Origin: a virus | Virus record (IMG/VR): IMGVR_UViG_3300008448_009629 | Span: 1 to 24,651 of that record | DNA: 24,651 nucleotides | Strand: one strand, 5' to 3' | The notes under the pieces: generated by a model | The model's input: only the letters and a program-made list of their open reading frames with translations | Databases searched by the model: none | What the model was told of the DNA's origin: nothing | Shown: one piece after another, positions 11 to 8,506 of the stretch | Layout of the letters: every line of letters starts with the position of its first letter | Position numbering within the stretch: position 1 is the stretch's first letter | Made by a program: the position numbers and the translations under genes

Positions 11-36
11 CTGCCGACTAGTCGCCTAGTGGGCAG
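11..36 (-). promoter_or_regulatory. Hairpin with GNRA-type loop after the last left-arm gene
   Basis: On the - strand the RNA would pair CTGCC with GGCAG and ACTAG with CTAGT, separated by one C-C mismatch, around a GCGA loop, which fits the stable GNRA tetraloop class. It starts about ten bases after the stop codon of the 84-residue gene. There is no T run after it, so it is not a classical intrinsic terminator. A 3' end stabiliser or an intercistronic element before a further gene beyond the window is possible. The pairing is seen; the role is inferred. Confidence 0.45.
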
Positions 37-809: not shown

Positions 810-1015
810 GGCGATACCCCGTAGGCGAGCGCCAGAACGGCACCTAGGAGCGCGCTTCCAACGTAGGGAGCCGCTAGGCTAGCCACGCGAGCCGCGAGGC
901 TCGCTACGGGGCTGCTAGGCGCCGCGATGGGGGCGCGCAGTGCGCGGGCGATGCCCGGCGAGTAGGTACCGGCGTCTAGGCGCGCGGCGATCGAGGTGTA
1001 GACAATGTGGGTCAT
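806..1015 (-). CDS. Small Ala-rich hypothetical protein, possible C-terminal membrane segment
   Basis: A 69-residue protein rich in Ala, Ser and Leu. A heptad-like direct repeat, VASLAAR then VASLAAP, occupies roughly residues 37-50, and the C-terminal part (VGSALLGAVLALAYG) is hydrophobic and long enough for one membrane helix. The repeat is mirrored in the DNA by a perfect 7-base inverted repeat at 887-904. The start follows GAAAGG and a run of seven or more C on the coding strand. It overlaps the next gene as ATGA. A small membrane protein such as a holin or superinfection factor is conceivable but unsupported; simple composition lowers certainty. Confidence 0.55.
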   Translation of the reverse strand: MTHIVYTSIAARLDAGTYSPGIARALRAPIAAPSSPVASLAARVASLAAPYVGSALLGAVLALAYGVSP

Positions 1016-1075: not shown

Positions 1076-1384
1076 TCAGCGAAACTCGACGAGCCGCGCC
1101 ACGTCACTAGCGCCGCGATTACGGAGTGCGGCGAAGACCGCAAGGCGGTCGGACTCGGACGTGCACTCGCCGCGTAGCAAATACATGGCAGCCTCAAAGC
1201 TGTCCCTGTGCTTACGGCAACGGCGCGAAGCCCGCGTGTACTCGTGGTACAGCGTCTCGTCGCCGTCATCCTCGAACCATGCGTCAAAGGCGTCGGATTC
1301 ACGCTTTTTCGCCTCCAGCAGCTCGGATCCGACAGCGAGCACATAGTCAGCGAGTATATGGAAGGCAGTTGGGCTGATGGTCAT
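1076..1384 (-). CDS. Small acidic helical hypothetical protein
   Basis: A 102-residue protein, mostly predicted helix by eye: an N-terminal helix (FHILADYVLAVGSELLEAKK), an acidic stretch (FDAWFEDDGDETLYHEY), a basic patch (RASRRCRKHRDS) and two more helical stretches. Function not recognised. The start is supported by GAAAGGACTCTGACC directly before ATG, almost identical to the leader of the 1436-1663 gene, so the two genes share a translation-start cassette. An alternative longer reading frame at 1012-1344 on the same strand is a shadow. Both flanking gaps contain a related GGGGGAGC hairpin. Confidence 0.72.
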   Translation of the reverse strand: MTISPTAFHILADYVLAVGSELLEAKKRESDAFDAWFEDDGDETLYHEYTRASRRCRKHRDSFEAAMYLLRGECTSESDRLAVFAALRNRGASDVARLVEFR

Positions 1385-1405
1385 GGTCAGAGTCCTTTCA
1401 ATGAA

Positions 1406-1425
1406 GGGGGAGCCGCAGCTCCCCC
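1406..1425 (-). promoter_or_regulatory. Intercistronic hairpin with UGCG tetraloop
   Basis: A perfect 8-base inverted repeat. The - strand RNA reads GGGGGAGC, loop UGCG, GCUCCCCC, again a cUNCGg-type tetraloop. It sits between the stop of the 1436-1663 gene and the GAAAGGA site of the 1076-1384 gene. The stem is the same as at 1042-1063, but one base pair is missing and the loop base differs, which keeps the structural class. CGCTGACCATC precedes both hairpins on the - strand. Copying of a junction cassette or selection on the structure are the likely explanations. Confidence 0.6.
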
Positions 1426-1435
1426 GATGGGATGG

Positions 1436-1663
1436 TCAGCGGGAAGACGCGGCGTTTGCAGCCGACCACGCCTCGTCACGCCGCGCACGAGCCTCGTGCA
1501 ACGCCTTACGGACTCGGGCAATCTCACGGGAGAGGGCGACCCTGACAGCGGGGTCCGTCGAGTCGCAAAATGCGAACGTGAGCCTAAGGAGAGCGTCTAG
1601 GAGCGCATCGGACTCGTCGGACATCGCAAGGAATCGGCCCCAGGCTTTGGCAGTCTTCGTCAT
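1436..1663 (-). CDS. Small helical hypothetical protein, first left-arm gene
   Basis: A 75-residue protein, predicted helical throughout, with an acidic and hydrophobic front half (SDESDALLDALLRLTFAF) and an Arg/Ala-rich back half (SREIARVRKALHEARARRD) that could form a coiled coil. I chose the ATG at 1663 because GAGAGGACTCTGACG lies directly upstream and matches the leader of the next gene; a longer version starting at 1729 would add 22 residues but has a weaker CAGGG site. It is the first gene after the divergent control region. No family recognised; a small regulator or host-directed early protein is possible from position only. Confidence 0.65.
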   Translation of the reverse strand: MTKTAKAWGRFLAMSDESDALLDALLRLTFAFCDSTDPAVRVALSREIARVRKALHEARARRDEAWSAANAASSR

Positions 1664-1777
1664 CGTCAGAGTCCTCTCAGGTAGCGGCGTCTCGCCGGTG
1701 TGGTCAACCCACGAGTGACGTTCTCTCATGCCCTGGCAGACGACGCAAGAGAAAAAGAGAGAGAGTCAGCGTTTTCC

Positions 1778-1805
1778 TACAGTAGACAGGAAAAAGCCTG
1801 GTCAA
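1778..1805 (-). promoter_or_regulatory. Candidate leftward sigma70-like promoter
   Basis: On the - strand TTGACC (1805-1800) is followed after 16 bases by TACTGT (1783-1778), a good -35 but only a half-matched -10. It would transcribe the left operon, with the first gene starting about 110 bases downstream. A small inverted repeat, TTTTCCT and AGGAAAA (1771-1777 and 1787-1793), overlaps the -10 side and could be a control site. The hexamers are seen directly; promoter activity is inferred. Confidence 0.3.
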
Positions 1806-1817
1806 AAAAAGACCATC

Positions 1818-1847
1818 TTGACAGGGTAAGTTATCGTATGGTCTATA
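1818..1847 (+). promoter_or_regulatory. Candidate rightward sigma70-like promoter
   Basis: A perfect TTGACA at 1818-1823 is followed by an AT-rich block; TCTATA at 1842-1847 gives an 18-base spacer, and TATATA follows at 1844. Its -35 box lies 12 bases from the -35 of the leftward candidate, and the two boxes form an inverted repeat (GTCAA at 1801-1805, TTGAC at 1818-1822). A transcript from here would begin inside or just after the long hairpin at 1839-1888 and run toward the terminase gene. The -10 match is weak. Confidence 0.35.
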
Positions 1848-2087
1848 TATTCCCGTAGGCCTTGGCCGTAGGGAATATGTAGAGACCAGCTGGCGTAGCT
1901 CTGTATATGCGCGCTTGGCGCGCTTCCCTTGGAAAGTACCTGACTAGACGCACCCCCGTTAGGCGGGGTGCGTAGTCAGTAGCGGTACTCTTGAGCGGTG
2001 ATGGGAGGGATACCGTATGTGTGCATAATGAGCGAAGACAAGCCATTGGCTTGGCTGAGCGTAGATACATCCATGTACTGCTACGCT
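1839..2087. other. Run of strong inverted repeats upstream of the terminase gene (candidate structured RNA or origin)
   Basis: Five foldback elements follow each other. First, 1839-1888: about 21 base pairs including GGTCT/AGACC and ATATTCCC/GGGAATAT, with small bulges and a CTTG loop. Second, 1909-1923: GCGCGC-TTG-GCGCGC. Third, 1935-1989: AGTACC/GGTACT outside, then CTGACTA/TAGTCAG, then CGCACCCC/GGGGTGCG, with short bulges. Fourth, 2039-2053: CAAGCC-ATT-GGCTTG. Fifth, 2058-2087: AGCGTAG/CTACGCT with an inner TACAT/ATGTA. No convincing reading frame covers them, and none is followed by a T run. The inverted repeats are seen directly. Whether they act as RNA, as replication origin hairpins or as protein sites is not known. 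Confidence 0.45.
2011..2019 (-). promoter_or_regulatory. Reverse-oriented operator-like half site
   Basis: TACCGTATG is the reverse complement of the ACGGTA element found four times on the + strand at 2101-2236, differing at the last base of the TATACGGTA core. It lies between the third and fourth hairpins of the control region. Given one partial site, chance occurrence is possible. Confidence 0.25.
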
Positions 2088-2100
2088 ACAGTTCTCGTAT

Positions 2101-2236
2101 GTATACGGTACAATGGTAGATAACGTATATACGGTACATAGAGTACATACTGTACAAGGATAGAAGCGATACTGTATATACGGTAGTTAGATATGATAGA
2201 TAGCTGTATGAGGTATAGGTATAGGTATATACGGTA
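2101..2236 (+). repeat. Cluster of four operator-like repeats, core TATACGGTA
   Basis: TATACGGTA occurs exactly at 2102-2110, 2128-2136, 2177-2185 and 2228-2236. Three copies share the longer GTATATACGGTA, whose GTATATAC core is a perfect palindrome; the copy near 2174 extends to an imperfect dyad ACTGTATATACGGT. A related dyad GTACATACTGTAC lies at 2143-2155. Successive copies are 26, 49 and 51 bases apart. The block is much more AT-rich than its surroundings. Repeated palindromic sites between divergent operons are typical of repressor operators or of promoters for a phage-encoded polymerase; the sequence cannot decide which. Confidence 0.6.
2212..2229 (+). repeat. Tandem GGTATA repeat (3 copies)
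   Basis: Three exact head-to-tail copies of GGTATA run directly into the fourth TATACGGTA site. Such hexamer runs can be slippage products or iteron-like binding sites. It is short, so no function is assigned. Confidence 0.5.
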
Positions 2237-2280
2237 ACTACCTCGAGCTGGCTGCTGTCTGGCTTGTAGGAGGAGGGGGT

Positions 2281-2316
2281 ATGTGTGACAGCGGTAGGAG
2301 GGGGGCTATGGCCTAA
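2281..2316 (+). CDS. Candidate 11-codon leader minicistron upstream of terminase
   Basis: A short frame MCDSGRRGAMA with an unusually strong ribosome site: GGAGGAGGGGG at 2269-2279 ends just before the ATG. A second purine run (GTAGGAGGGGGG at 2294-2305) lies inside it, ahead of an internal ATG-GCC-TAA. The terminase gene starts about 60 bases later with no clear ribosome site. The frame could be a regulatory leader peptide, the remains of a lost gene, or a purine-rich sequence with another role. Its size makes a chance frame quite possible. Confidence 0.25.
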   Translation: MCDSGRRGAMA

Positions 2317-2378
2317 CCCTTCTTCTCTAAACCCTACCATATGGCCTTCTACTGTTTGTGACGTGCTACTATGCGGGT

Positions 2379-4013
2379 ATGGCATACGAGCAGGACAAGA
2401 GGCGTACGGCGGTAGAGGGGAAGCAGGCTGAGAGGCTTGTGGGGTTGAAGCGAGCCATTGCTCGTGAGCTTGAGGACAAGCGGGTTAGGCTGGGTACGCT
2501 GGAGGAGCTGTTGACGCACCCGATGGGGTTTGGGCTGACGACGGCGAGTGTGGTGCAGAGGGCCATCATGCGGTGTGCGGACGGGAGGGAGCTTGGAGAG
2601 CTGTGGGGGCATCCTGCGGTGGTGAGGGCGTTTGGCGGGATGGAGCCACGGTTTGAGGGCAAGCCGAAGGAGATGGCCATCCTGAGTGCTATTCGTTGTG
2701 GCAAGAGCTTGATGGCTGCTTGCATGGCGGTGCATTGGACGCAGGTATGTGCGCTTGAGCACCTTGGGCCTGGGGAGGTGCCCAGGGTGAGCATCGTCAG
2801 CATCAACAAGGACTTGGCCGAGGTTATCTTCGGGCACATTGTTGGGCGTGTGATGTCGAGCCCTGTACTTAAGGGCTTGGTGATGGAAGACCCGACGACG
2901 GACGAGCTAGTGTTGCGGCATCCCTCTGGTCGCCCCGTACAGATTAAGGTGGTAGCCGGGTCGAGGAGTGGTCAGACGCTTGTGGCTCGCTGGAGTGCTG
3001 GAGCCATCTTTGACGAGTTTCCTCGCATGCTCGGGGAGGGGGAAGCGGTGGTGAACTGGGACGACATGCGGAAGGCCGTTCTCTTCCGTATCTGCCCTGG
3101 CAGCCAGGTGGTGAGCATTGGCTCCCCATGGGCACCCTTTGGGCCTGCGTATACGGTAGTGAAAGAGTATTACGGGGCACCGTCAAGGAACATCGTGGTG
3201 GTCAAGGCTCCTGGTTGGGACTTGAACCCGGTGCTGTGGACCCCGCAGGCGGTGCGGGAGGCGGAGGAGAAAGACCCGCAGGCGTTCCGTACCGATGTGG
3301 CTGCGGAGTTTGCCCAGCCTGAAGAGTCTCTCCTGAGCCAAGACTCGCTCGATGCGGCTACCCGTCCAGCTCCGCTTATCGACCCTCCCAAGCCTGGGGT
3401 GCAGTACTCGGCGGCCATCGACCCTGCTACGCGAGGCAACGCATGGACCCTCATCATTGCCTGCCAGGAGGGCGATAAGAGGCGGGTGGTGCTGAGCAAG
3501 CAGTGGGTAGGCTCGGCTGCTGCCCCGCTGCGTCCTGGGGCCATCCTGGAGGAAGTGGCGAGGCTTTGCCGAGCTTACCGGGTGTCGGTGCTCGACTCAG
3601 ACCAGTACTACGGCGACGCCCTCAGAGACCTGGCTGCTCAGCAGAAGCTCGTGCTCATCGTCCATGCCTGGAACGAACGAGAGAAGCTCTCGAAGTTCCT
3701 CGCCATCAAGACCATGTTCGAGCAGGGCATGGTCGAGATTCCCGCAGACCCGCTGCTCAGGTCTGACCTTGGCCGCGTGAAGAAGGTGCTCAAGGGCAGC
3801 GGCGCTAGCATCAACCTCCCGCGCACCTCAGACGGCCGCCACTGCGACTACGCCCCCTGCCTTGCCATGGCCCTCGCTCGCTACTGGCAGAACGAGGATG
3901 ACGTGAAGGAGGCCCAAGGCGAGCTTGCCAAGATGGGCGAGGAGGAGCGCAGCATCCTCAAACGCATCATCGACAGGTCGAAACCTCAAGATGGTTGGGG
4001 CTACTCCTGGTAG
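2379..4013 (+). CDS. terL: Terminase large subunit (DNA packaging ATPase and nuclease)
   Basis: This protein (544 residues from the ATG at 2379; a GTG at 2358 would give 551) powers DNA translocation into the procapsid and cuts the concatemer. The ATPase half shows a Walker A-like SAIRCGKS (Lys109), a Walker B AIFDE (Asp212, Glu213) and a coupling motif SIGSPW (246-251). The nuclease half shows the expected acidic triad sites: AAIDPA (Asp348), LDSDQYYGD (Asp406, Asp408) and HCDYAP (Asp490). The length is normal for the family. Neither start has a good ribosome site, so the start is uncertain. No small terminase subunit precedes it; instead there is a long structured noncoding region. The TATACGGTA sequence also occurs inside the gene at 3150-3158. 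Confidence 0.93.
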   Translation: MAYEQDKRRTAVEGKQAERLVGLKRAIARELEDKRVRLGTLEELLTHPMGFGLTTASVVQRAIMRCADGRELGELWGHPAVVRAFGGMEPRFEGKPKEMAILSAIRCGKSLMAACMAVHWTQVCALEHLGPGEVPRVSIVSINKDLAEVIFGHIVGRVMSSPVLKGLVMEDPTTDELVLRHPSGRPVQIKVVAGSRSGQTLVARWSAGAIFDEFPRMLGEGEAVVNWDDMRKAVLFRICPGSQVVSIGSPWAPFGPAYTVVKEYYGAPSRNIVVVKAPGWDLNPVLWTPQAVREAEEKDPQAFRTDVAAEFAQPEESLLSQDSLDAATRPAPLIDPPKPGVQYSAAIDPATRGNAWTLIIACQEGDKRRVVLSKQWVGSAAAPLRPGAILEEVARLCRAYRVSVLDSDQYYGDALRDLAAQQKLVLIVHAWNEREKLSKFLAIKTMFEQGMVEIPADPLLRSDLGRVKKVLKGSGASINLPRTSDGRHCDYAPCLAMALARYWQNEDDVKEAQGELAKMGEEERSILKRIIDRSKPQDGWGYSW

Positions 4014-4263
4014 TTGACTGTCACTCAAAAACGTGATACCGAGGGTACAGTTCACGAACGCCCTGCGTTGATGAAGCGCCTCCAGCGGCAGCTCCTCCAG
4101 GGCCTTCTCCTGAGCTAAGGTAAAAGTTTTTTGCTTCTCTCTCTCTTGATAGAGAGGTTAAGCAAATTCCAAGTCCTTCCTTTGATGGCTTCTTCTAAGC
4201 GAGTGGTGATGCTTATGAAAAAGTTATTGACGGTAGTACGAAATAGGTAAATCAGTATGCTCG
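4014..4263 (+). other. Gap between terminase and portal with hairpin and late-promoter candidates
   Basis: About 250 bases lack a convincing gene, unusual inside this tightly packed operon. A hairpin lies at 4133-4163: GCTT/AAGC outside and CTCTCT-TGAT-AGAGAG inside, preceded by a T6 run (4127-4132). TTGACGGTAGT at 4226-4236 shares ACGGTAGT with the operator region (2180-2187) and with 3152-3159 inside terL, and could be a promoter or regulator site for the capsid genes. Tiny frames at 4071-4118 (15 residues) and 4185-4250 (21 residues) lack ribosome sites. The gap probably holds a control element that separates packaging from structural expression; this is inference. Confidence 0.4.
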
Positions 4264-6156
4264 ATGGACTATTCCGAGCAGGCGCAACAGTGGTTCGACA
4301 AGGACCGTAGCGATCCTCACCTGGCCGTCGTTGAGCGAGTTAAGGGTACGCTCGACAGCCAGCAGGCACGCCGCGAAAGTGTGCGCCGTTGCCAGCAAAT
4401 CTACGGCGTGGACTTGTCTGCGTACGGAATGGCCCCGGATGCAACCATCGACCGTCGCTTCAGCATCAACAACCTGAAGAACAGCATCGACACGCTGGCT
4501 GCCAAGATTAGCCGGGTCAAGACGCTTCCCTACGCGGTCACGAGCGGCGGCGACTACATGCAGCGCCGCCGTGCCGAGAAGCTCTCTCGCTTCGTCGAGG
4601 GTGCCTTCGAGGACACGAACTTCTACACCAAGTCGATGAGCGTCGACCTGGGTACGCTCGTCGATGGTACTGGCTGCGCCAAGGTCACGTCCAACAACGG
4701 GCAGCTTCAGCTCGAAGTCGTCCCGATGCTCGACCTGTTCGTCTCGGATGCCGAGGCGCGCTACGGCCAGCCGCGTAACCTCATCCAGCGGCATCTCATC
4801 GACCGCAACGTCGTCATGCATCTCTACGGGGATAGCGAAGGCGATGGCCTCGTAGGCTCTCGCTCCTTCCGCCGCTCCAGCATCCAAGACGTGTCGAACC
4901 CCACCGACACGGAGATGGCTCAGTTCGTCATCAACTCTGGCTCGGACCTGGTCTACGTCTACGAAGCCTGGCACCTGCCGTCTGGCCCTGGTGCCGATGA
5001 CGGCGAGCACATCGTCTGCATCGAGAACGCTACGCTGCTTCGCGAGAAGTGGACGCGCGACACGTTCCCCTTTGCCTTCCAGCGCCGCAACGTACCGCTC
5101 GTTGGCTTCTGGGGGTCGTCTGCCGTGTTCGAGTTTGGCCCTGCGCAAGAGGAGCACAACCGGCTCTCTCACAAGCTCCAGCAGGCGCACAACATCATGG
5201 GCGGCTCGCATATCATCATGCAAGCCGGCACCCTCGGCAAGACCGTGTCGCTCGACAACGGCATCGGCACCATCATCGAGTACCTGCCCGGTGGCTCGCC
5301 TCCGATGACGTTCAACCCTGACCCGGTGAACCCGCAGACCTACGCCTATCGCTCCAGCATCCCGCAGGAGATTAACCAGGGCCTCGGTCTGTCGAACATG
5401 AGCGCCAACTCGGAGCTTCCTGCGGGTCTCCGAGCAGCTTCGGGCAAGGCTCTCCAGGTCTACGAGGACTTTGAGTCGGAGCGCCTGCACGTCTTTCACA
5501 AGCTGCACGAGCAGTTCGCCCTCGACGTGGCCAAGCTCTTCATCGCGGAAGCCGAAAGCATGTTGGCTGCCGACATCGACGTGGCCGTCGCCCGCCCCAC
5601 CAAGAGCACCCTTGAGGAGCTGTCTTGGTCGGAGGTGCGCATGGACCAGCGCGAGTACCGCTTGCGCATGTACCCCATCTCGAACCTCTCGCGGCAGCCG
5701 TCTGCCAAGTTCGAGCAGATTCTCTCCATGGCCCAGTTTGGCCTCGCCGACAAGCCGACGCTTCGTCGCCTGCTCGACATGCCAGACATCGACGCCGAGG
5801 AAGACCTCGCGAACGCCCCGCGCGACGCCGTCGACATGCAACTCTACGAGATGGTTGAGTCGCGTCGCTACGTTGCGCCGTCTCAGTACATCGACCCACT
5901 GATGGCGCAAGAGCGAGCCAAGCTCTTTATCGCCAAGTGCATGGTCGACAAAGTTCCGCAGAAGAAGCTGGACCTTGTCGCCCAGTACATCGAAGAGTGC
6001 GCGGCTATCATCGCCGCTATGCAGGCACCGGAGCAGGCGGCTCCAGTCCCGCAAGCGCCTCCCACTGGTGAGCAGACCGGTGAGATGGCTCAGGTTGCCG
6101 CCCCAATGGCCGGGGAGGGCGCTGCTCCGCCCAACCCTGCCTCTATGGGAGTGTAG
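4264..6156 (+). CDS. Portal protein (head-tail connector)
   Basis: This 630-residue protein would form the dodecameric ring at the capsid vertex through which the terminase pumps DNA. Recognition rests on position right after terL, length, and the motif region around residues 373-410 (GLGLSNMSANSELPAG, then SGKALQVYEDFESERL), which matches the pattern seen in podoviral portals where a helical stem region carries an A-L-x-x-Y-E-D-x-x-S/E-R signature. An upstream helix (QEEHNRLSHKLQQAH) is also typical. The last 45 residues are Pro, Ala and Gln rich and probably disordered. The ATG at 4264 is the only possible ATG in frame; it lacks a good ribosome site, and an out-of-frame ATG at 4257 with a nearer AGG starts a 17-codon frame that overlaps it. 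Confidence 0.85.
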   Translation: MDYSEQAQQWFDKDRSDPHLAVVERVKGTLDSQQARRESVRRCQQIYGVDLSAYGMAPDATIDRRFSINNLKNSIDTLAAKISRVKTLPYAVTSGGDYMQRRRAEKLSRFVEGAFEDTNFYTKSMSVDLGTLVDGTGCAKVTSNNGQLQLEVVPMLDLFVSDAEARYGQPRNLIQRHLIDRNVVMHLYGDSEGDGLVGSRSFRRSSIQDVSNPTDTEMAQFVINSGSDLVYVYEAWHLPSGPGADDGEHIVCIENATLLREKWTRDTFPFAFQRRNVPLVGFWGSSAVFEFGPAQEEHNRLSHKLQQAHNIMGGSHIIMQAGTLGKTVSLDNGIGTIIEYLPGGSPPMTFNPDPVNPQTYAYRSSIPQEINQGLGLSNMSANSELPAGLRAASGKALQVYEDFESERLHVFHKLHEQFALDVAKLFIAEAESMLAADIDVAVARPTKSTLEELSWSEVRMDQREYRLRMYPISNLSRQPSAKFEQILSMAQFGLADKPTLRRLLDMPDIDAEEDLANAPRDAVDMQLYEMVESRRYVAPSQYIDPLMAQERAKLFIAKCMVDKVPQKKLDLVAQYIEECAAIIAAMQAPEQAAPVPQAPPTGEQTGEMAQVAAPMAGEGAAPPNPASMGV

Positions 6157-7186: not shown

Positions 7187-8506
7187 ATGCCTATCTCCAG
7201 CAACGTCACCGCAATCAACGCAGTCCTCAAGCTCCTCTACAAGAAGGGCGTCCCGAACCTCTCGTACAACAAGCAGGCTCTTCTCCAGAAGATTCCGGTT
7301 GTTCAAGACTTCACGGGTGAGAAGAAGGTTCTCGCGCTCCAGACCACCAACCCGCAAGGCTTTGGTGCGGACTTCGCCCGCGCGTTCTCGCACGCCGACA
7401 GCGCCGAGGTTTACAAGCGCTTCGAGCTGTTCCGCGTGCAGCACTACGGCTTCGCGCAGGTCTCTGGCGAAGTCATGCGTACGGCGGTTGACCCCGGCTC
7501 GCTCGTGAACGTGTGGCGCAACCGCACGGAGAGCGTCGTTCGCGGTATGCAGAACAGCGCCGGCCGCCTCCTGTACGGCTCCGGCACTGGCCGTATCGGT
7601 GCGGTGAGCGCGGCTGCGGGTGGCTTGGTTTCGACCGTTACGCTTGCCACGTCGGCGGACATTGCCAACTTTGAAGAGGGCATGTACATCACGATGTACA
7701 CGGCGGAGGACTTCGGCGCTTCGTACGTCGATTTCGCGACCGGCCTTGCGGCTACCACTTTCAGCTCCGCGAACATGGTTCGTAAGGTCACTGCGGTCAC
7801 GCGCGACCTCGCGGCTGGCTCGGCTACTCTTACGCTGGACACGACCGCGAACTGGCCGGCTAGCGCTATCATCGTCCGCGACGGCGACGGTATCAACTAC
7901 AGCGCTGGCGCGACGAGCTACGACACCAACGCTCGCTCGATGGCCGGTATCAAGCAGTGGATTTCGGGCAGCCTCATTGGCACGCCGCCCTACGGCAACA
8001 CGCTCTTCGGCCTCAACCGTTCGAGCGACAAGGTCCGCCTCGGCGGCTCGGTCCTCAACGGCTCTGGTCTCAACATGGTCGAGGCCCTCCAAACCCTTGA
8101 GAGCAACATCCTCTTTCAAGGCATGGGCTACCCCACGGCCATTGCGGCCAACACGCTCGACATCGCCAACCTCAAGAAGTCGGCGCTCTCTGACGTTATC
8201 CGCATCCCGGCGCAAGACCCGAAGCAGAACCTCAATTTTCAGTCGGTAGTGTTCATCGGCCAGAACGGCCCCATCCCGTTCGTGGAAGACCCCTTCTGCC
8301 CGCGTGGCGAGGCGTACATGCTCAACCTCCCGTCGTGGAGCCTCTCCACGGCTCCTGGCGGCATGTTCCAGCTCGTCGACTGGGACGGCGTGAACTTCCT
8401 CCGCCTCACCAACGAGGACCAGTACCAGGCGCGCTTCGCCTCGTACTACCAGCTCGGCTGCGACAACCCCGGCTCGAACGGCTACGTCTACAACTGGGGT
8501 GCCTGA
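7187..8506 (+). CDS. Major capsid protein
   Basis: A 439-residue protein that would build the icosahedral shell. It follows the scaffold with a good ribosome site (TAAGGA) six bases upstream. The N-terminus (INAVLKLLYKKGVPNLSYNK, then PLL-like ALLQKIP) and the run FARAFSHADSAEVYKRFELF with HYGFAQVSGEVMR fit the HK97-fold capsid family common in uncultured podovirus-like phages, in which an early helix is followed by the E-loop and spine helix. The later GRLLYGSGTGRIGAVS segment is also typical of that family. Gene codons are the most biased to G and C in the window, as expected for the most expressed virion protein. A short inverted repeat (TAGGC-CCA-GCCTA, 8507-8519) follows the stop. Confidence 0.88.
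   Translation: MPISSNVTAINAVLKLLYKKGVPNLSYNKQALLQKIPVVQDFTGEKKVLALQTTNPQGFGADFARAFSHADSAEVYKRFELFRVQHYGFAQVSGEVMRTAVDPGSLVNVWRNRTESVVRGMQNSAGRLLYGSGTGRIGAVSAAAGGLVSTVTLATSADIANFEEGMYITMYTAEDFGASYVDFATGLAATTFSSANMVRKVTAVTRDLAAGSATLTLDTTANWPASAIIVRDGDGINYSAGATSYDTNARSMAGIKQWISGSLIGTPPYGNTLFGLNRSSDKVRLGGSVLNGSGLNMVEALQTLESNILFQGMGYPTAIAANTLDIANLKKSALSDVIRIPAQDPKQNLNFQSVVFIGQNGPIPFVEDPFCPRGEAYMLNLPSWSLSTAPGGMFQLVDWDGVNFLRLTNEDQYQARFASYYQLGCDNPGSNGYVYNWGA

Follow-up and report, generated by a model that had tools for sequence, protein, structure and literature searches.

A fast-evolving, hairpin-rich putative control region and possible replication origin between divergent operons of an undescribed phage family

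The hairpin block studied here lies in the window (the whole stretch of DNA that was analysed, a 24.65-kb virus record of an uncultured tailed phage). It is tentatively interpreted as the variable core of a cis-acting control region of ~650 bp between divergent operons, whose hairpins and repeats would most likely form a replication origin. The feature is real and of an ordinary kind, and its detail is unusual: a fast-evolving, hairpin-rich control region and probable origin. Taken alone, the origin role is a serious possibility on the comparative analysis, somewhat short of an even chance. It is based on what was observed: the region is non-coding, structured beyond chance and divergently placed, it carries repeats, and conserved flanks enclose a fast-evolving core. 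On this reading an unexplained hairpin block would sit at the centre of control in a phage family that has not been described, and the conserved elements E1, E2 and E3 are directly testable.

The divergent intergenic region (1730–2378, ~650 bp) separates a short leftward operon of small genes, extending up to 1729, from the rightward terL operon, which continues with portal/adaptor, head, internal virion and tail-fibre genes. The features are listed below with their coordinates in the window.

812–1015, minus strand: small membrane-type protein with the motif ARLxAGTYxP
1436–1729, minus strand: first ORF of the leftward operon, 97 aa, function unknown, only weak PHROG matches
1799–1822, strand-neutral: E1, left border, TGGTCAAAAAAAGACCATCTTGAC, with inverted GTCAA / TTGAC and inner TGGT / ACCA
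1839–1888, strand-neutral: hairpin H1, belonging to variable spacer A, with 19 predicted pairs
1909–1923, strand-neutral: hairpin H2, GCGCGC-TTG-GCGCGC
about 1935–1991: hairpin H3, three nested stems (GTACC..GGTAC, CTGACT..AGTCAG and GCACCCC..GGGGTGC)
2003–2031, plus strand: E2, mid-region, GGGAGGG-16 nt-TAATGA, candidate promoter
2038–2056: hairpin H4, AAGCCA..TGGCTT, right of E2, opening variable spacer B
2056–2096: hairpin H5, right of E2, at the beginning of variable spacer B (H4 and H5 together are entered as 2038–2105)
2102–2236: TATACNGTA repeats, plus strand at 2102, 2128, 2177 and 2228, minus strand at 2170, G+C about 42%
2275–2352, plus strand: E3, leader element GGGGGTRYATGTGMC..GGGGCYATGGCAWACCCC-23/24 nt-GCYTTCTAY, right border, beginning of the rightward operon
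2379–4013, plus strand: terL, PHROG terminase large subunit, heading the rightward operon in this lineage

The terL gene is a 551-aa ORF, and PHROG large terminase matches also cover its C-terminal half. Its start was placed at ATG 2379 and not at GTG 2358, the start of the longest ORF, because the relative L005 carries an in-frame TGA in that stretch. Relatives of terL with 71–86% identity were found on 13 viral contigs. Four long relatives were compared whole (G001, 39.4 kb; G006, 42.0 kb; G008, 38.9 kb; G009, 37.7 kb); they share a conserved map of ~38–42 kb, and G001 can be closed within recT, part of which is carried by each contig end. In these relatives, leftward recombination genes (exonuclease, RecT and RusA-like resolvase) come after the rightward structural genes; then come a short rightward set and a leftward set that ends at the studied region. 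The RusA-like Holliday junction resolvase (L016:6477–6821, minus strand) is 85–92% identical family-wide, far above the neighbouring early genes. No replication initiator, helicase or polymerase was recognized among the proteins scanned, which covered part of the early ORFs. No tRNA or tmRNA was found. The family is undescribed and without a close cultured relative. No DNA similarity was detected in annotated phages, the terL protein search returned only relatives of 21–25% identity, the putative major head protein returned none, and no relative was found in bacterial genomes. The small membrane-type protein is retained left of the region in all lineages, with relatives there in G001, G006, G008 and G009, and a scan from the early side with this protein yielded no further intact region. 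A contig that is otherwise different has a relative of it beginning at its end (L054:5001–5107).

The first-pass annotation had described five foldbacks at 1839–2087, and all of them were recovered (H1–H5), including the three nested stems of the third. For the first it had given about 21 bp; the foldback is there, with 19 predicted pairs. The chain continues past 2087, to ~2105. The absence of a convincing gene was confirmed, as no ORF within the block has a family match. The block had been placed directly before the terminase gene; it does lie upstream of terL, but the repeats (2102–2240) and the leader element (2275–2352) intervene.

Folding of 1820–2110 against dinucleotide shuffles went far beyond chance, as the first-pass annotation had proposed to check. 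The minimum free energy (MFE) of the plus-strand RNA was −123.7 kcal/mol against −99.7 ± 5.5 for the shuffles (z −4.34), and that of the minus strand was −106 (z −6.00), a larger relative excess of stability than on the plus strand. None of the 200 shuffles was as stable. With DNA parameters the z values were −6.0 and −6.3. When GC content is taken into account, no other spot of the window is as stable as the block (120-nt window 1761–1880, z −2.89). Perfect 6-bp hairpins exceed those of shuffles in the window's region (3 of 200 shuffles reach the count), although this is not a genome-wide maximum, higher counts being found in 62 of 969 windows of 450 nt.

The divergent gap was compared across five lineages. 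For the window, G001, L003 and G009, the whole E1–E3 region is more stable than its shuffles (z −3.3 to −7.5; −4.6 to −7.5 in the three relatives). The excess is weak in G006 (−2.2 and −2.9) and not significant in G008 (−1.4). Perfect short hairpins are above shuffles in five of six regions. H2 is the sole hairpin placed alike in the window, G001 (GCGCGC-TGT-GCGCGC) and L003 (GAGCGC-AAG-GCGCTC, with one compensatory pair). Other large hairpins precede E2 in G001 and G009, with sequences unlike H3. No common RNA fold was found across lineages for spacer A or E3, and the fold of the block, whose conservation the first-pass annotation had proposed to check, is not kept between lineages. Hairpin richness is thus mostly kept while the sequence changes, and therefore a DNA-level or generic structural use fits better than a specific RNA.

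E1, E2 and E3 recur in fixed order and place, except that E1 is missing in one lineage. The E1 consensus TGGTCARRAAANNACCANMTWGAC was found at the left border with no mismatch in the window, G008 and G009 and with one in G001; a search of G006 did not find it. One additional hit elsewhere in G009, with five mismatches, is at chance level. E1 probably serves as an operator, or contributes the −35 element of divergent promoters. E2 is present in all five lineages with 16–18 nt between the G-run and TAATGA; the G-run is weaker in G001 (GGGAAAGAGG). TAATGA is one of only six hexamers shared by all five regions (shuffle mean 1.6). It occurs once per region, and its copies elsewhere in the genomes have no comparable G-run at the E2 spacing. 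A leader peptide starting at the ATG of TAATGA was considered and dropped; the small ORFs, read by eye, encode unrelated peptides in each lineage. E3 was found in all 11 family loci that reach its place. It is a rigid DNA element of ~75 bp with GGGG..CCCC symmetry, and its sequence is conserved although covariation gave no support for an RNA fold. No standard sigma-70 promoter or canonical −35/−10 pair was found at E1, E2 or E3; a leftward TTGAC-15..17-TAnnnY is present only in the window, G006 and G009. The three elements are taken as putative promoters or operators of the leftward and rightward operons.

Between these elements the sequence changes rapidly. E1 and E2 are 185–246 nt apart and E2 and E3 roughly 160–410 nt, and the spacers scarcely align beyond the closest clade. 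Their hairpin and repeat stretches have no shared fold and little common sequence between lineages. In the window, the right spacer carries the TATACNGTA repeats, with one perfect dyad TACTGTATATACGGTA at 2170–2185; only one half-site occurs elsewhere in the window (3150). These repeats look iteron- or operator-like. G001 carries them at the corresponding place (8327–8383), with two more at 6018–6068. The AT-rich repeats are restricted to the clades of the window and G001, and the right spacer of G006 and G008 contains GC-rich repeats. In a GC-rich repeat block upstream of E3, the copy number of a GCTCGGCCTAG-like unit differs between L011 and the near-identical L007 and L010.

In the proposed mechanism, promoters and operators at E1 (left), E2 (middle) and E3 (right) would serve the leftward and rightward operons. 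A DNA-binding protein would load on the TATACNGTA repeats, and the hairpin stretch would be melted or transcribed into a structured primer. The host replisome would then be recruited, and the phage RecT, exonuclease and RusA-like resolvase may back recombination-dependent replication. We infer each of promoter activity, origin activity and the primer step. The origin reading, one of the candidate roles rightly named in the first-pass annotation together with regulation, is favoured by a position that separates divergent operons in every lineage and does not depend on terL, by the iterated dyads, and by the RecT, exonuclease and RusA-like genes, alongside which the scanned proteins included no recognized initiator, helicase or polymerase. 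Against it, no GC-skew switch occurs at the site and no conserved DnaA box was found. The only DnaA box of the window (2020–2028) is at chance level and was rejected, not being conserved in relatives. G008 shows no significant MFE excess, the AT-rich repeats are confined to two clades, and a second intergenic region of the relatives, still richer in hairpins, could be the origin instead.

The closest parallel is the origin region of Ceduovirus (lactococcal phages c2, bIL67 and 923 types), which was shown experimentally to support plasmid replication without phage proteins (PMC7150918). The Ceduovirus origin types are mutually dissimilar; the variable part lies between the conserved promoters PE1 and PE2, and the PE1 transcript is implicated (PMC7150918). 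Both regions are non-coding gaps at a constant place between divergent blocks, with a variable core flanked by conserved sequence. In the window, a leftward set diverges from the rightward terL/structural operon, and the left operon would be the early one. The differences are that the phages are unrelated, with about 60% G+C against 36%, that the flanks here are only candidate promoters, and that the present region has dense hairpins and TATACNGTA dyads and a putative origin function. The region adds a second, unrelated candidate to the phage origin/control regions in which conserved flanks enclose a freely changing core.

A purely transcriptional role is possible and nearly as likely as the origin. 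The region would then hold divergent promoters and operators and no origin, with E2 as the late promoter; H4/H5, the repeats and E3 would give the terL mRNA a long, structured 5′ leader; alternatively, the hairpins would insulate the two operons from each other. The geometry of E2 (G-run, 16–18 nt, TAATGA) is promoter-like and kept in five lineages, E3 heads the rightward operon also where its first gene is not terL, and the short dyads resemble operators. However, canonical −35/−10 sequences are lacking, the leader has neither a shared RNA fold nor covariation, and ~200 bp of hairpins upstream of E2 are left unexplained.

A packaging role was raised for the block, as speculation, in the first-pass annotation on account of its nearness to terL. 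In the more distant relatives G006, G008 and G009, several small genes (~3–4 kb) separate the E2–hairpins–E3 region from terL (in G009, E2 and E3 lie at opposite contig ends, and the join is inferred); what the region follows is thus the operon boundary, not terL. Therefore the nearness that prompted the packaging idea is secondary, and the proposed link of the hairpins to packaging was not borne out. Some of these small genes have relatives on the other strand in G001 (1337–3217), which leaves E3 beside terL in that genome and, it seems, also in the window. A 57-aa HTH gene comes after E3 in G006 and has a relative in G009.

A more specific reading, in which packaging starts at E3 (a cos or pac site) and terminase binds the repeats upstream of it, is unlikely. 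In cos/pac sites of the lambda/SPP1 type, a conserved element and repeats head the late operon, and E3, a rigid conserved element of ~75 bp with GGGG..CCCC symmetry beside lineage-specific repeats, stands similarly at the head of the rightward operon. Contig ends fall ~15–480 bp upstream of E3 in 7 of the 13 terL-bearing family contigs (L002, L003, L004, L006, L010, L011 and L031), and for L031/G009 (37.7 kb) this is true of both ends. However, these ends all differ in position, sharing no cut position, and most contigs continue across E3. The differing positions point to assemblies broken in structured or variable DNA more than to a cut site; hairpins or strain variation that interrupt assembly would account for the ends as well as physical ends would. 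For G001, G006 and G008 the contig breaks lie at other places, that of G001 within recT. E3 and terL do not keep together across the family, and no small terminase gene was identified, in agreement with the first-pass annotation, which had seen none beside terL.

The second intergenic region lies at the junction of the short rightward and leftward sets in the relatives (G001, ~5.92–6.40 kb; G006, ~12.6–13.4 kb; G008, ~19.5–20.1 kb; G009, ~33.7–34.2 kb). On the contigs (L014:5920–6440, L016:12600–13440, L050:19460–20000 and L048:13692–14600) it carries a strong hairpin like that of a terminator, and its repeats are similar to those at the studied site. In G001 it holds two TATACNGTA half-sites, found otherwise only at the studied site and in one more place. 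The 8-mers of the G006 and G008 right spacers rank highest at the second site in G006, G008 and G009; their lead is small within the own genome against other GC-rich windows and larger across genomes (58 against 42, 62 against 35 and 52 against 32). Sharing of repeats between the two sites is clear in G001 and suggestive in G006, G008 and G009, where GC-rich composition is confounding. The two could form a replication/partition system, a reading that is quite unlikely. Sites 2–5 kb apart would bracket the leftward operon, their repeats would change together (AT-rich TATACNGTA against GC-rich GGCAGGCGCACGC-like), and one rapidly co-evolving DNA-binding protein would join both to start replication without a recognizable initiator. 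If true, this protein would be a new initiator. The likeness of the repeats could alternatively reflect the shared composition of non-coding DNA. Phage P4 has repeats at two sites, ori and crr, and the alpha primase/helicase as initiator. The G001 repeats likewise occupy two intergenic sites separated by a few kb (6018–6068 and 8327–8383), with related GC-rich repeats in G006, G008 and G009. Here, however, no P4-type alpha primase/helicase was found among the proteins scanned, which covered part of the early ORFs, and the site pairing is a resemblance of sequence only.

That the hairpins are a by-product of fast, unconstrained intergenic evolution, with no role of their own, is improbable. The sequence is indeed unconserved, other windows hold as many perfect hairpins and the MFE excess is not significant in G008. 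However, the window, G001, L003 and G009 fold beyond every shuffle, short hairpins are enriched in five of six regions and the placement between E1, E2 and E3 recurs.

A conserved functional RNA, for packaging or regulation, is very improbable: both strands fold strongly and H2 has a single compensatory pair (L003 against G001), but the minus strand is relatively more stable than the plus strand, the lineages have no common fold, and Rfam gave no match at curated or relaxed thresholds (even E 5). The phi29-type packaging RNA named in the first-pass annotation is not supported; the likeness lies in a structured block near a packaging gene, and the differences are the lack of an Rfam match to the phi29 pRNA, the lack of a conserved fold, and a full-length classical large terminase rather than the phi29-type ATPase without a nuclease domain.

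Another structured spot lies between terL and the portal gene (4105–4270). With GC content taken into account it ranks second in the window for structure (z −2.88), and its element GGTAAAANTTTTTT..CGATAGAG..GGAAATACGATAGTC..GTTGACN15TAAATCA is conserved in all five lineages. Rfam had no match to it, and none of the common folds was convincing.
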